This document shows, in pieces, positions 55,186 through 60,683 of a DNA stretch of 64,000 nt. The translations under genes and the position numbers were made by a program. Source of the DNA: Gimesia aquarii (lineage in GTDB: Bacteria > Planctomycetota > Planctomycetia > Planctomycetales > Planctomycetaceae); the NCBI RefSeq assembly GCF_007748175.1, contig NZ_CP037422.1, positions 6,965,952 through 7,029,951 on the forward strand, in the 5' to 3' direction. Positions within the stretch are counted from its first letter, which is position 1. Every line of letters begins with the position of its first letter. The notes beneath the pieces are model-generated. The model did not search any database, was not told the origin of the DNA, and saw only the letters and a list, made by a program, of their open reading frames with translations.

Positions 55186-56088
55186 ATGAATCATTCACGT
55201 GTGTTGATTAATTTGTCCACCATTATCACGGGATTATTGTTTGTGAATTGTGGCTTTACGGATGCCTGGGCACAATCATCGAGCTCTTCCGGCCTGAAAA
55301 TTGACTCAGTATTAGTGAGCCTCATAGAGCAAGTAGAAGTCCCCGCACGTGAAGTTGGTCAACTCAAGAAAATGTTGGTCAAAGAAGGTATGTCGGTTCA
55401 AGAAGGAGAAGTGTTGGCTCGAATTGAAGATTCAGAAGCTGTCTTACTTTTAAAACAGGCGAAATTAGAATCGGAAATGTCAAATCTGAAAGCAGAAAAT
55501 GACGTTAATATTCGTTTTGCCCGTAAAGCATATGAAGTAGCGAAATCTGAGTTACAGCGCGCGGAAGATTCCATCAAAAAATATCCCAAGAGTATTTCCA
55601 AAACCGAATTGGATCGCTTGAAACTTACTGCAGAAAAAGCAGAATTGGAAATCGAACAGGCCTTAGAAGAAGCGAAGACGTCACAATTAGAAGCTCGCTT
55701 GAAACAGAATGCAGAACAGATTGCTTCACTGGCTATTCAACGTCGAAAAGTTGTGGCACCGCTATCGGGAATGGTCGTACAAATTATGGCAAAGAACGGG
55801 GAATGGGTTCGCCCCGGTGATACCGTGCTTCGAATTTTAAAATTGGATCGATTACGTGCAGAAGGACTCGTAAATGCATCTAAACTGCAGAATCTAAACT
55901 TGAAAGGTCGACCTGTAGTCCTGATCGTGAATCAGGGAACAAAGAATGAACTCGAGTTCCAAGGGAAAATTTCGTTTGTCAGTCCGGAAATTAATCCGGT
56001 CAACCACCAGACCCGCGTCTGGGCAGATATTGAAAACCCCGACTTCAAGCTCAAACCGGGCATGCGTGCTTCTCTGATTATCAAGTAA
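55186..56088 (+). CDS. HlyD/RND-type periplasmic adaptor
   Basis: Membrane fusion protein of 300 aa. It has a signal peptide (STIITGLLFVNCGF, cleavage near AWAQ). The first lipoyl-like half (VPAREVGQLKKMLVKEGMSVQEGEVLARIED) is followed by a helical hairpin of about 100 residues, a coiled coil (AKLESEMSNLKAEN to LEARLKQNAEQIASL). The second lipoyl half (RRKVVAPLSGMVVQIMAKNGEWVRPGDTVLRI) and a beta-barrel (KISFVSPEINPVNHQTRVWADI) complete it. Such adaptors link inner-membrane pumps to outer-membrane channels. Unusually, no RND or ABC pump follows: the next gene, 32 bp downstream, is an M50-HlyD fusion. The pair is probably one export or envelope unit. An AGGAA ribosome site supports the ATG. 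Confidence 0.85.
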   Translation: MNHSRVLINLSTIITGLLFVNCGFTDAWAQSSSSSGLKIDSVLVSLIEQVEVPAREVGQLKKMLVKEGMSVQEGEVLARIEDSEAVLLLKQAKLESEMSNLKAENDVNIRFARKAYEVAKSELQRAEDSIKKYPKSISKTELDRLKLTAEKAELEIEQALEEAKTSQLEARLKQNAEQIASLAIQRRKVVAPLSGMVVQIMAKNGEWVRPGDTVLRILKLDRLRAEGLVNASKLQNLNLKGRPVVLIVNQGTKNELEFQGKISFVSPEINPVNHQTRVWADIENPDFKLKPGMRASLIIK

Positions 56089-56120
56089 CCCATTCGATTG
56101 CGAAAGACAGTACAGCCACC

Positions 56121-58334
56121 ATGTCGTTCGGTCCTCAAGACTTTTCGAATCAACCTCTGCGTCTGCAAAAGCGAGCCGACCTGAGTATTCAACAGTTACA
56201 ATTCGGCGGCAAAAAATATTGGGGCATTAAAGACCCGATTTCATTGCAATATTATCAACTGCGAGATGAAGAATTTTTTATCCTTCAAATGCTGGACGGA
56301 ATTGCGTCATTTGAGACAGTTCGACGTGAATACGAACAACGATTTCGACCCCAGAAACTGGAAGCCGCACAACTACAGGGATTTTTATCACGACTGCATC
56401 AGGAAGGATTAATCGTTGCCGAAGCATTTGGGCAGGGTGAAATCCTGTTGGAACGTCGAAGCCAAAAACAGAAGCAAGCATTTCGCTCCCGATTTATGAA
56501 TCCCCTGGCAATTCGTTTTCGAGGTCTTGATCCTCATCGTTTTCTGAACTGGTTACAACCCTGGTCATCTATTTGCTTTTCGCCATTGTTTCTATTGTCT
56601 TCACTCGTATTAATGATTGCCGCATTGACATTAATTCTTACACAGCTCGAAGCAGTGATTGCACAACTTCCCGATTTTGCTACTTTTTTCGAAGCAAAAA
56701 ATCTGGTACTCCTTGGTCTCAGTCTGGCCTTTGTTAAAATACTGCACGAGTTAGGACACGCGATGGCCTGCAAACAATTTGGGGGCGAATGTCATGAGTT
56801 AGGAGTGATGTTGCTGGCATTTATTCCCTGCCTGTATGTCAATGTCAGCGATGCGTGGACGATGCCTAACAAGTGGCATCGTATCATTGTGAGTGCAGCT
56901 GGTATCTTTGTAGAACTAATCATTGCATCTATTTGTGTCTTCCTGTGGTGGTTCTCTTATCCGGGATTATTTCACTCACTCTGTCTGAATGTCGTTTTTA
57001 TCTGTTCGGTCAGTACTTTGTTACTGAATGGAAACCCTTTGTTACGATATGATGGTTATTATATTTTGCTGGACTTGCTGGAAGTGCCAAACTTGAGGCA
57101 AAGGGCACAAACGATTGTTTCCAATCGCCTGCATCACTGGTTTTTTGGCCACAAGGCCCCCACGCTACTGAAAGAGCCAACGCGTCAGCGAAGATTTTTG
57201 TTTTTCTACGGAATTGCTTCGGTTTTGTACCGTTGGTTTATTGTCATCGTGATTTTGTCGGTTTGTTACTATGTTCTGGAACCCTATGGACTGGAAATCA
57301 TCGCTCAGGCGCTAGGGGCTTTTATTTTGATGGGAATGTTGGTTGTGCCTTTGAAATCTGGTATTAAAGAAATCCAGACCTATTCTAAAGCAGGTCAAAT
57401 TCAGTGGCGACGTTTTACGGTACGTACGACACTGACACTGATTCTATTGGGCGGCTTGCTGTTCATACCTCTGCCTCATCGTATTACCACTCCCGCACTC
57501 ATTGAGTTGAAGGACGCAAAGCACGTCTATGTTACCGCGCCTGGTTTCCTGAAATCAGCAGTCACTCCACAAACCTCATTGCAGCAGGGTTCCCTGATCG
57601 CTGAATTGCAAAATGACCAGATTCAACAGGAAATACTCAAATTGACTGGTCAAATCAACGAGCAGCAAATTCGTATCGACACGCTGGGAAAACGTCAATT
57701 AGATGATCCGGAAGCTGCTCAGGAACTTCCAACTGCAACAGAACAACTGACCGATCTAGAAGATCAACTGCAACAACGCCTCACAGACTTCAAGCGACTT
57801 AGTCTCAGAGCCCCTATTACAGGTACTGTCATTCCAGCACCACCCAAATCGACTTCTCCCGAAGAAGGATCACTTCCCAACTGGTCAGGCTCGCCGCTGG
57901 ATCAGGAAAATCGAAATTGTTTCCTGGATCGAGGAACCTGGCTTTGTTCGATCGGCAACCCTGACCAACTTCAGGCGCGCCTGATTGTTGACCAGGAAGA
58001 TGTCGAGTTTATTCAATCAGGACAGTCCGTCCGGATTCTATTAGATGAATATCCTGGTCAACTTCTGAGAGGAACCATTCAGGAAATTGCAGAAATTGAC
58101 ACCAATGACTTACACTCAAATCTGATCCATCGTGAAGAAATTACGACAGAAGTCGACAATACAGGGAAAAGAAAACTGAGTAATACATCCTATCTGGCTC
58201 GGGTCACCCTGGATGCTTTTTCTGAGCGACCTCTGATTCACTCAGGAGGTCAGGCCAAAATTGCTGTTTCACCTGAATCGTTGGGGAAAAAAGCATATCG
58301 ACATCTGAGAAAAACCATTCGCCTGTTTCAGTAG
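56121..58334 (+). CDS. PqqD-like/M50 metalloprotease/HlyD fusion protein
   Basis: Multidomain inner-membrane protein of 737 aa. Residues about 15-100 resemble a PqqD-like winged domain (WGIKDPISLQYYQLRDEEFF, IASFETVRREYEQRF). From about 155 to 440 there are several membrane helices with an M50/site-2-protease core: zinc motif HELGH at 209-213 (ILHELGHAMACKQFGG) and the second-site motif GNPLLRYDGYY near 305-313. After a last helix (LTLILLGGLLFIPL) the rest (about 455-737) is a HlyD-type adaptor with coiled coil and lipoyl halves (VYVTAPGFLKSAV; LSLRAPITGTVIPAP). The combination is seen in planctomycete proteins; its job is not defined. The adjacent adaptor suggests a joint complex, perhaps peptide processing with export. 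This is inference. Confidence 0.82.
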   Translation: MSFGPQDFSNQPLRLQKRADLSIQQLQFGGKKYWGIKDPISLQYYQLRDEEFFILQMLDGIASFETVRREYEQRFRPQKLEAAQLQGFLSRLHQEGLIVAEAFGQGEILLERRSQKQKQAFRSRFMNPLAIRFRGLDPHRFLNWLQPWSSICFSPLFLLSSLVLMIAALTLILTQLEAVIAQLPDFATFFEAKNLVLLGLSLAFVKILHELGHAMACKQFGGECHELGVMLLAFIPCLYVNVSDAWTMPNKWHRIIVSAAGIFVELIIASICVFLWWFSYPGLFHSLCLNVVFICSVSTLLLNGNPLLRYDGYYILLDLLEVPNLRQRAQTIVSNRLHHWFFGHKAPTLLKEPTRQRRFLFFYGIASVLYRWFIVIVILSVCYYVLEPYGLEIIAQALGAFILMGMLVVPLKSGIKEIQTYSKAGQIQWRRFTVRTTLTLILLGGLLFIPLPHRITTPALIELKDAKHVYVTAPGFLKSAVTPQTSLQQGSLIAELQNDQIQQEILKLTGQINEQQIRIDTLGKRQLDDPEAAQELPTATEQLTDLEDQLQQRLTDFKRLSLRAPITGTVIPAPPKSTSPEEGSLPNWSGSPLDQENRNCFLDRGTWLCSIGNPDQLQARLIVDQEDVEFIQSGQSVRILLDEYPGQLLRGTIQEIAEIDTNDLHSNLIHREEITTEVDNTGKRKLSNTSYLARVTLDAFSERPLIHSGGQAKIAVSPESLGKKAYRHLRKTIRLFQ

Positions 58335-58502
58335 CTTTGACCAGAATGGCCATAAACGCCCTATTTTAACAGACATTCCTGACTCAAGATCGACATTTCC
58401 AGATTGACGCAGGATTGCTAAAATCCCCGGATTGACTGTAAAACAAGGTTGTTAAAACTAAATCTCGAAACAAGTAGAATCTGGCGGCAAGGAAGCTTCT
58501 CG

Positions 58503-59465
58503 ATGACCGATTCACAAACCGATTCCCTACCCACATTCAAGCTCGTTGTGCTCGCTGGTGGGGAATCAGCTGAGCGTACCATTAGCCTGCAAAGTGGAGA
58601 AAGCGTGGCACGTGCATTAACGTCTCGCGGACACCAGGTAAAAACAATTGATCCCTCTTTGATCGATCTCGAGCGCTATGACTGGACTAACTGTGATGCC
58701 GTCTTCATTGCCTTACATGGAACTTATGGAGAAGATGGCACCATTCAAGCGACTCTCGATCGATTGGGCGTCCCCTATTCTGGCTGCGATGCATCGACAT
58801 CCAAACTCGCCTTCAGTAAATCAGCTTCCAAAGAACGTTTTATTCAATGCAATGTGAATACTCCCTCTTATGTGTTGATCCATGAATCAGATAACGCACA
58901 ACGAATTGAGCAGCACGCACGAACGATGGGCTACCCATTGGTTGTAAAACCGGATGCGCAAGGTTCCAGCCTGGGAGTTACAATCGTACAGACTCCTGAA
59001 GAATTACCGCAAGCACTGACTCGCTGTTTTCACTACGACTCATTTGGAATTCTCGAGTCAGCCATCAAAGGCTCTGAATGGACTCTCAGTTTGGTCAATG
59101 ATCAGGTACTACCGCTGATTCAGATTCAGACCGCACGTGAATTTTTTGATTATGAAGCAAAATATCACGAAGACTCAACCGAATATCTGTTCGATTTCGA
59201 CTTCCCAACAAATGTGATTCAGGCAATTACCAAAACAGGTGTGAATGCCTGTGAAGCACTAGGGACAACTGGCATTGTCCGTGTCGATATGATCTTAGAT
59301 CGTTTTCAGCAACCCTGGGTACTTGAAATAAATACTATTCCTGGATTCACAAATCACTCCCTGGTTCCCAAAGCAGCAGCTAAAGCCGGCATTGATTTTG
59401 GCGAATTGTGCGAACGGGCTCTCATCCATTGCCTGACAAAAACAGCCGATAAGCCGCAAAATTGA
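58503..59465 (+). CDS. ddl: D-alanine:D-alanine ligase
   Basis: ATP-grasp ligase making the D-Ala-D-Ala dipeptide for peptidoglycan. From ATG at 58503 it is 320 aa, the usual size. Visible blocks are LVVLAGGESAERTISLQSG, the ligand region FIALHGTYGEDGTIQATLDRLGVPYSGC, PLVVKPDAQGSSLGV for ATP binding, GSEWTLSLVND, and the metal site VRVDMILDRFQQPWVLEINTIPGFTNHSLVPKAA. An earlier in-frame start (58449) has no family support. It is followed after 228 bp by an FtsQ-like gene, recalling the ddlB-ftsQ order of the dcw cluster. It implies that the host builds peptidoglycan, as now accepted for planctomycetes. Confidence 0.96.
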   Translation: MTDSQTDSLPTFKLVVLAGGESAERTISLQSGESVARALTSRGHQVKTIDPSLIDLERYDWTNCDAVFIALHGTYGEDGTIQATLDRLGVPYSGCDASTSKLAFSKSASKERFIQCNVNTPSYVLIHESDNAQRIEQHARTMGYPLVVKPDAQGSSLGVTIVQTPEELPQALTRCFHYDSFGILESAIKGSEWTLSLVNDQVLPLIQIQTAREFFDYEAKYHEDSTEYLFDFDFPTNVIQAITKTGVNACEALGTTGIVRVDMILDRFQQPWVLEINTIPGFTNHSLVPKAAAKAGIDFGELCERALIHCLTKTADKPQN

Positions 59466-59693
59466 CAAAATTTAACCAAGCGGCCTGTTTGGCACCACAA
59501 TATCAGCTTTTTTATAGAGCACTCCAACTCGACAAGCATCAGATTGCGATAATCATAAAGTAAGAACCAGTACCGTAATTGCTCCAGCGGAATTGAGTCA
59601 TGCATCCGGCCTAATAGTTTCTGCAACAGGATAAGAACCACATTACATTTAAAAGTACCTCGTTTAAATAGAGCCCGTAATCACAAAGAGCGT

Positions 59694-60683
59694 ATGAGCC
59701 GAAAAGCCCCCAAATCTAAAAAGCGACCTGTCAAAAAAAAGAAGGTCGAAGAAGTTATTGAAGAAGAGGAAGAATTTGAAGAAGAAAAAGCTTCTGCGCT
59801 GAGTCCTTCCTCACTGATTCAATTGCTTTTCCGACCTAAGGTTCTCGTATTTCTAGCAGTTATCGCCTCGGGTTTATTCTTTTTTCAGAAGCTCAAAAGC
59901 TACATCCCTGATCTGTCTCAGCGAGAAGAATACCAGATAGAAACAAAAAACCTTTCACTGATACCAGCTCCTCCACATTATGTTCCCATCGACATCGTCG
60001 ATCAGGTAATGGCACAAAATCGACTGCCCGATCAATTATCACTACTCGATAAAAACTTAGTACAAACAATCGCAGAAGCATTTCAGAAACACCCCTGGGT
60101 ACAGAACGTCGTCTCCGTTCGAAAGACCAATAACATAGAAATTGAAGTCTTATTTCGTAAACCGGCAGCGATGGTCGAGATCAAACAGAGTTTATATCCG
60201 GTTGACAATGAAGGCGTTTTGTTACCTCCCGAAGATTTTTCTGTTTCAGATGCCCGCCGATATCCGGTCATCACGGGAATTCGATCGATCCCAGAGGGGC
60301 CTGCTGGCACATCATGGGGAGACTTGACTGTCACTGGAGCCGCTCAGTTGGCAGAAGCACTCGGGCCTCATTGGAAAGAACTTGATATTGTTTCCATCGA
60401 AGCACCGCCACGAACGAGTGCGGAACTATCTCTAGATGATTTGATTTATCGTCTGATTACAACAGGTGGTTCTCAAATCGTCTGGGGCCGTTCACCGAAA
60501 AGTCAGCGACGAGGAGAGTTACGTGTCGATCAGAAAATCGGAAAGTTGGAAAAATATTATCGCGATTACGGTGGTTTTGATCGTCCGCACGGTCCCTATG
60601 AAATCGACATCCGGCATTGGCAGGAAATTTCCCGCCGCCCTCTCAAACAACAAAGCAGACACCGTAGTTTGATTCGTCGTTGA
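59694..60683 (+). CDS. FtsQ-like POTRA-domain cell envelope protein
   Basis: Single-pass inner-membrane protein of 329 aa. The cytoplasmic start is very charged (KKRPVKKKKVEEVIEEEEE). A transmembrane helix lies at about residues 50-67 (LVFLAVIASGLFFFQKL). A POTRA-like domain follows (about 90-160; QTIAEAFQKHPWVQNVVSVRK, IEIEVLFRKPAAMVEI) and then the FtsQ-type beta region (YPVDNEGVLLPPEDF, RYPVITGIRS, LGPHWKELDIVSIEA). FtsQ recruits divisome partners in other bacteria; planctomycetes generally lack FtsZ, so its function here may differ. It sits behind ddl, as in classical division clusters. It converges with the acyltransferase gene. The family call is by topology and context, with weak sequence identity expected. 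Confidence 0.75.
   Translation: MSRKAPKSKKRPVKKKKVEEVIEEEEEFEEEKASALSPSSLIQLLFRPKVLVFLAVIASGLFFFQKLKSYIPDLSQREEYQIETKNLSLIPAPPHYVPIDIVDQVMAQNRLPDQLSLLDKNLVQTIAEAFQKHPWVQNVVSVRKTNNIEIEVLFRKPAAMVEIKQSLYPVDNEGVLLPPEDFSVSDARRYPVITGIRSIPEGPAGTSWGDLTVTGAAQLAEALGPHWKELDIVSIEAPPRTSAELSLDDLIYRLITTGGSQIVWGRSPKSQRRGELRVDQKIGKLEKYYRDYGGFDRPHGPYEIDIRHWQEISRRPLKQQSRHRSLIRR

Follow-up and report, generated by a model that had tools for sequence, protein, structure and literature searches.

The window analysed here is a 64,000-nt stretch of DNA covering positions 6,965,952–7,029,951 of a one-contig genome of 7.2 Mb, whose host is a planctomycete as judged from its relatives. It encodes a fusion of a PqqD-like RRE (leader-binding) domain, an M50 intramembrane protease and an HlyD-type adaptor. 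The gene for this fusion starts after a spacer of 32 bp behind the gene for a separate HlyD-type adaptor, and both are read from the same strand (Table 1). The original prediction, made from the letters alone, had described this adaptor and fusion and the lack of an adjoining pump, and our analysis agrees: both open reading frames were found with the expected domain matches, and among the open reading frames of the window and their domain matches no ABC, RND or MFS gene adjoins the pair. We consider it probable that the pair forms the core, in the inner membrane and periplasm, of a machine dedicated to the export of LEPR-XLL proteins. These carry an N-terminal tag and are mostly giant proteins of surface type.

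Table 1. Features of the adaptor/fusion gene pair (positions refer to the window; residues to the fusion protein)
Feature	Position	Strand	Basis
HlyD/RND-type periplasmic adaptor, 300 aa	55186..56088	+	Open reading frame and profile matches
PqqD(RRE)/M50/HlyD fusion, 737 aa	56121..58334	+	Open reading frame, profiles, model, structure comparison
Predicted PqqD-like RRE (leader-binding) fold, residues 13-102	56157..56426	+	Structure match, homologue profiles
M50 site-2-protease-type membrane domain, residues ~105-448	56433..57464	+	Pfam M50, structure matches
HELGH zinc-binding motif, residues 209-213	56745..56759	+	H209, E210, H213 invariant in alignments A3 and A4
NGNPLLRYDGYY, residues 303-314	57027..57062	+	N303, N305, L307, D311, G312, Y313 invariant in A3 and A4
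HlyD/MacA-type periplasmic adaptor domain, residues ~451-719	57471..58277	+	Profile, model, structure match

In a profile search the separate adaptor matched HlyD_D23 (1.3e-22) and RND_mfp (4.6e-31). Its hydropathy indicates an N-terminal signal-peptide-like hydrophobic stretch at residues ~6-20, and it shares 34% identity with the adaptor encoded beside a paralogous fusion at 5.13 Mb. For the fusion a structure was predicted with a mean pLDDT of 83 (about 80 in the RRE part). Residues 13-102 of this model aligned with the RREs of TbiB1 and TfuB1, which were solved with leader peptides, at Z values of 10.0-10.3 over 83-86 residues. The family profile of the fusion matched the lasso-peptide RRE TfuB1 with an E value of 0.008, and PF05402 (PqqD) was matched in 17 of 24 homologues (best 1e-7), while Pfam PqqD gave no match at E<=1 in the window fusion itself. 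By its model, the N-terminal domain is a PqqD-like fold that resembles the leader-binding RREs of lasso-peptide enzymes.

The remainder of the fusion matched Peptidase_M50 (1.2e-7) and HlyD_3 (8e-8). For residues 131-383 a partial structural alignment was obtained with RseP, SpoIVFB and MjS2P (Z 9.2-10.3); since Z values under ~13 can be unspecific for helical folds with the structure tool used, the assignment as a site-2 protease is carried by the sequence match and the motifs. As had been predicted, HELGH and NGNPLLRYDGYY are present, and the zinc ligands are kept across the homologues examined, which were aligned in sets of 24 rows (A3) and 37 rows (A4). The HExxH motif was intact in 30/30 planctomycete and 22/22 proteobacterial homologues, and a pattern search revealed the NPLxRxDG-type motif in 14 of the latter. 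D311 is presumably the third zinc ligand. Residues 451-718 matched MacA with a Z of 16.5. The closest NCBIfam models are those of daptide and epipeptide proteases, the best being the daptide intramembrane protease NF041824 (E 4.4e-54, model aligned over residues 44-413); with 184.1 bits against a cut-off of 300 the fusion is a non-member by that test.

The pair is a dispersed member of a module that was described in 2015. Kamneva, Poudel and Ward reported a conserved locus that encodes four types of protein (secondary SecA_DEAD, M50-HlyD, HlyD/biotin_lipoyl and GAF-HlyD) and occurs in Planctomycetes, Verrucomicrobia, Proteobacteria and others, and proposed type-I-like secretion with SecA as the ATPase and M50 as the pore (PMC4452313). 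The main text of that paper names no cargo, does not contain the terms PqqD, LEPR or 'giant', and calls the broader role of the module unknown; it also reports dispersed cases (PMC4452313), so that dispersed genes do not exclude membership. Two of the gene types, the M50-HlyD fusion and the separate HlyD adaptor, are present in the window, where they stand alone and not in one locus with all components, and the other two were found in the same genome. The secondary short SecA_DEAD is represented by two frames of 666 and 669 aa, neither of them beside the window pair; the short SecA (SecA2) frames lie at 1.199 and 0.292 Mb. A paralogous set of GAF-HlyD, HlyD and M50-HlyD genes is located at 5.125-5.131 Mb, and a second GAF-HlyD gene adjoins a gene for a TolC-type protein at 0.589-0.594 Mb. 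Compared with the description of 2015 the genes are dispersed here, and the RRE domain, the link to the tag and the versions lacking SecA2 are newly added. With 1183 aa, the frame that contains the canonical SecA match (L004, C1:3700740) is unusually long; for planctomycetes, rearranged SecA domains were also reported in 2015 (PMC4452313).

The original prediction had seen in the pair a compact system that works without a pump. A stand-alone two-gene system is ruled out by the larger module described in 2015 together with homologues of the absent partners in the same genome. The absence of a pump holds for the adjoining genes and is misleading otherwise, as relatives of the usual partners are encoded elsewhere in the genome. 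Consistent pairing with a known transporter, which had been named as an argument against the prediction, is half borne out: the partners are a SecA-type ATPase and TolC, not an ABC, RND or MFS pump.

To find relatives of the window fusion we used a contig scan, from which the best 80 loci were kept; these are from planctomycetes and from two records named only 'bacterium', and phyla other than planctomycetes were sampled via plasmid records. For counting neighbours, 5 loci in which the open reading frame filter had lost the M50 gene and 21 with less than 4 kb upstream were removed. In the resulting 54 loci, GAF-HlyD was found near the M50 gene in 42, the adaptor in 41, either of the two in 47, SecA2 in 6 and a TolC-type gene in 5. 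Trees were calculated for loci with both genes, which left out L106 and L113. In these trees the window fusion has L109, L110, L112 and L111 as its four closest neighbours, and the GAF-HlyD at 0.589 Mb has the same four nearest relatives. In L111, L112, L113 and L170 a TolC-type gene is found next to GAF-HlyD and M50-HlyD, in divergent orientation. Because of the shared nearest relatives and the TolC-type gene beside the relatives' genes, the GAF-HlyD and TolC-type genes at 0.589 Mb are most likely the partners of the window pair, at a locus that appears to have been split. The fusion of L106 is 80% identical to the window fusion and has an adaptor but no GAF-HlyD in the upstream 10 kb.

The proposed cargo, as distinct from the machine, are the LEPR-XLL proteins (NF012209; Pfam PF07595 Planc_extracel), which have a tag of the form ExLE[P/D]RxLL, extended ExLE[P/D]RxLL[S/T]A, at the N-terminus. 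In the window's own genome a gene for a 1592-aa protein lies in divergent orientation beside the gene SecA2a (~1.198 Mb) and is followed by another gene of its kind. The 1592-aa protein is of the LEPR-XLL kind, because it shows ATEKLEDRTLLTG near its N-terminus. It (L018:9043-13821) also has cyclophilin and cadherin-type matches and weak matches to cohesin, matrixin (M10) and dockerin. No NF012209 match was obtained here at E<=1, though proteins with LEDRTLL, the local form of the tag, are readable, and PF07595 gave 16 matches at E<=10, none over the cut-off and three of them in frames of less than 30 aa. To replace NF012209 in this genome, we built an own tag model (A5) from 23 aligned N-termini. 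A5 matched 14 times at E<=0.01; the frames concerned span 788-7,909 aa, one of them is that of the gene divergent from SecA2a, and 7 of the matches had been rows of the model. The weakest of these matches (C1:3019641, E 0.0089) lies in the 7,909-aa frame, which is the largest candidate cargo of the genome.

Most of the 32 tag N-termini that we compared are rich in K/R, and their highest 15-mer Kyte-Doolittle mean was 1.75 with a median of 1.1, versus 1.86-2.51 for 7 window proteins picked for signal-peptide-like starts. Judged from hydropathy, the tagged proteins appear to be without an ordinary signal-peptide core. In a literature search that had subscription papers and preprints outside its scope, no paper was found that names an exporter of LEPR-XLL proteins, none that links them to the 2015 module, and no further one about the module itself; the name of the tag is mentioned in a paper on an 8,000-aa Vibrio protein (PMC10868602).

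We then compared the distribution of tag and fusion in a fixed set of 147 planctomycete genomes. M50-HlyD, hand-picked at E<1e-40, was present in 42 of them, and NF012209 scored over its cut-off in 24. Of these tag-positive genomes 23 had M50-HlyD, versus 19 of the 123 others (Fisher 2e-14), and on shuffling within families the overlap of 23 was reached in 19 of 20,000 trials. At the family level M50-HlyD occurred in 11/11 families with the tag versus 9/44 others. Tag calls by A5 coincided with M50-HlyD in 24 of 26 genomes (E<=1e-3) or 26 of 34 (E<=0.01). Nine M50-positive genomes had supplied rows to this model; after removal of the genomes that supplied rows, M50 was found in 15/17 tag-positive genomes versus 18/121. 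By NF012209 the contrast within family f24 is clean, but with A5 one match each appears in G110 and G116, both of them without M50-HlyD. SecA2, called by hand among the matches listed, occurs in 30 genomes, all of which carry M50-HlyD, and by hand count among the same matches it lies within 6 kb of M50-HlyD in 18 of the 30. The call was mainly based on a frame length below ~800 aa; G003 (880 aa) was kept since its SecA adjoins M50-HlyD, and two doubtful genomes that have no M50-HlyD, G013 (831 aa) and G097 (contig edge), were excluded. G018, a one-contig relative from the same family as the window's host, has one M50-HlyD (with HELAH), one SecA match in a 1193-aa frame and no tag over the cut-off, and could represent a stage in a stepwise loss of the system.

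Physical linkage of tag and fusion was seen on proteobacterial plasmids. The fusion family matched 79 plasmid records, and 22 were examined, taken from the first 33 of 40 matches listed with near-duplicates skipped; the Escherichia and Citrobacter matches lie outside these 22. NF012209 scored over its cut-off in 18/22 records (13/13 + 5/9), and in two of the four misses the tag was readable by eye, giving 20/22. As we read the order of the genes, the cluster starts directly with the tagged gene in 17/22 loci. In the others with a tagged gene it stands off the cluster: a few kb downstream in W15 (L205), ~10 kb downstream in W22 (L212), and with its end ~13 kb upstream in W19 (L209). In 17 of the 18 model matches the tagged frame comprises 1,893-12,780 aa, and in W20 it has 400 aa. 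The longest tagged gene was recognised by eye and has an annotated length of ~16,200 aa. The fullest order was found in L189 with genes for the giant protein, DUF3467, HlyD, RRE/M50/HlyD, SecA2, HlyD and TolC; other loci are without one or more of these. An order without SecA2 is giant, TolC, HlyD, HlyD, M50-HlyD. In six plasmids (L187, L188, L189, L190, L191, L201) a DUF3467 protein is encoded just before the adaptor/M50 genes, and after the giant gene where the giant is annotated (for example L188:12663-12959); it is possibly a chaperone or accessory factor.

The end of the tag differs between plasmid loci with and without SecA2. All nine tagged loci with SecA2 show LL[SAN]AD, and 10 of the 11 tagged loci in which SecA2 was not seen show [LMV][FY]D[AG], the exception being Thalassospira (L188; Fisher 1.2e-4). 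From these sequences it looks as if tag and motor evolved together in the plasmids. The link is weakened by L202 and L203, two of the nine SecA2 loci, which show an identical tag stretch, and by the planctomycete G022, which lacks SecA2 and has the LLSAD form (L098). We regard the split as a lead, as the two groups may simply be two lineages.

Considering these data, the export machine for LEPR-XLL proteins could work as follows, whereby tag recognition, cleavage, and the direction and energy of transport are what we infer. The cytosolic RRE/PqqD domain would bind the N-terminal tag of a protein lacking an ordinary signal peptide. The substrate would be engaged at the membrane, and a short SecA-type ATPase would supply the force in many genomes. 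The M50 intramembrane site would cut off or trim the tag, and the fused HlyD domain, the separate HlyD and GAF-HlyD would pass the chain to a TolC-type outer-membrane protein. The suggestion of the original prediction that the pair recognises, cleaves and exports points in the right direction, in agreement with the RRE fold, the intact HExxH and the location of TolC, adaptor and SecA2 genes together elsewhere; its compact system and its small peptide are unsupported. More tentatively, and with a chance that we put slightly below even, this may be a secretion pathway of its own kind, in which an RRE of a type otherwise employed in peptide maturation reads the LEPR-XLL tag of proteins with thousands of residues, the protease gates and trims, and adaptors and TolC carry the giant across the envelope; a short SecA would be the motor of one branch, and the second branch would draw on a different energy source.

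Several observations weigh against export of tagged proteins by this module. Co-location shows neither transport nor cleavage. No tagged gene stands beside the window pair, and the tag region is without a membrane-spanning segment, which bears on its access to the M50 site. No tag was called by either model in 13 of the 42 M50-positive genomes. Conversely, G087 (NF012209) and G040 and G110 (A5, E<=1e-3) are tag-positive and M50-negative, and at E<=0.01 there are eight M50-negative genomes (including G040 and G110) with one A5 match each. A tag protein was not found in two of the 22 plasmid loci (L206 and L208), and the tagged frame of L210 and L211 is a short one (~400 aa) that is followed by a separate giant frame. 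SecA2 was present in 9 of the 22 plasmid loci and not seen in the fetched stretches of 13; likewise, no short SecA is among the matches listed for G022, G101, G107, G136 and G143, which are M50- and tag-positive and 90-92% complete. SecA2 is not needed for the association of tag and M50-HlyD.

According to the proposal of 2015 (PMC4452313), the module is a type-I-like system for general use, with SecA2 as the ATPase, M50-HlyD as a pore, no proteolysis and no specific tag. Its HlyD, TolC and SecA partners were confirmed in the present comparison. However, the zinc ligands, needless for a mere pore, are invariant across diverged homologues, the RRE fold implies that a leader is recognised, and the association of tag proteins with M50-HlyD extends to genomes in which a short SecA was not found, so that a general-use pore appears unlikely. 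The tag could also be a hitch-hiker, if bacteria with giant proteins keep the module for other cargo. This is consistent with the concentration of both tag and module in some lineages and with the M50-positive genomes that gave no tag call. On the other hand, tagged gene and module stand together in distant Proteobacteria, at most of the plasmid loci examined, and shuffling within families rarely matched the observed overlap, which makes us regard hitch-hiking as quite improbable.

The chances are smaller still that the pair serves in trans-envelope signalling of the RseP/S2P kind, with M50 cleaving a regulator and HlyD sensing the envelope. The S2P-type fold, as in RseP and SpoIVFB, and the GAF domains of a partner protein fit such a function, but no regulator type recurs in the window or in the 16 plasmid loci with annotation, which hold single AraC, LacI, TetR and LysR genes; tagged giants, TolC, adaptors and SecA2 are the neighbours that recur. 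We ascribe a very slight probability to maturation and export of a RiPP (modified peptide), the kind of substrate that had been suggested from the PqqD-like fold. The RRE and the daptide and epipeptide proteases as closest models would suit this substrate, yet the score of the fusion is far below the daptide cut-off. The annotation of the 16 annotated loci, for which the gene table is incomplete, names no radical SAM product, and the 302-bp gap upstream of the pair holds four frames of 20-73 aa, none of them a convincing small precursor. The companion of the module is instead a LEPR-XLL protein, usually a giant one.

Giant adhesins such as SiiE and LapA are exported by type I secretion systems. 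The export machine proposed here for LEPR-XLL proteins shares with these systems an HlyD adaptor, a TolC-type protein and giant repetitive substrates. It differs in having no ABC partner, an N-terminal tag in place of a C-terminal signal, and RRE and S2P domains instead. Within the window no ABC transporter of a type I system is adjacent to the pair, and of the 16 plasmid loci with annotation only L206 shows a type I secretion permease/ATPase, ~5 kb away on the other strand. The nearest precedent for the putative mechanism is daptide MpaP, which was reported as an RRE-dependent intramembrane peptidase that removes the leader (PMC10036551). As in the window fusion, an RRE is fused N-terminally to an intramembrane site-2 protease. 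Unlike the fusion, the NF041824 model of 379 positions has no HlyD part, and the substrate of MpaP is a small peptide in a RiPP cluster. A review mentions EpeP as an M50 protease that is believed both to cut its product and to export it (PMC10885120).

While the module has been known since 2015, its proposed link to LEPR-XLL proteins is new here. The tagged proteins of Planctomycetes and some Proteobacteria, mostly of ~800-16,000 residues, look surface-exposed by their domain content. The link merges two questions, how these giants exit and what role the 2015 module has, into one testable model, and it suggests a function for proteins that are annotated merely as 'HlyD' or 'PqqD family'. If it holds, leader recognition by RREs would extend from small peptides to giant proteins.

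Promoter and terminator scans gave 9 hits versus 5.5 (sd 2.3) in shuffles and 5 versus 3.5 (sd 2.0), respectively, and were not used as evidence. Directly downstream of the pair (58449-60683), with no further genes of a cell-wall cluster evident among the neighbouring open reading frames, lie a gene for a D-Ala-D-Ala ligase and then an FtsQ-like gene.

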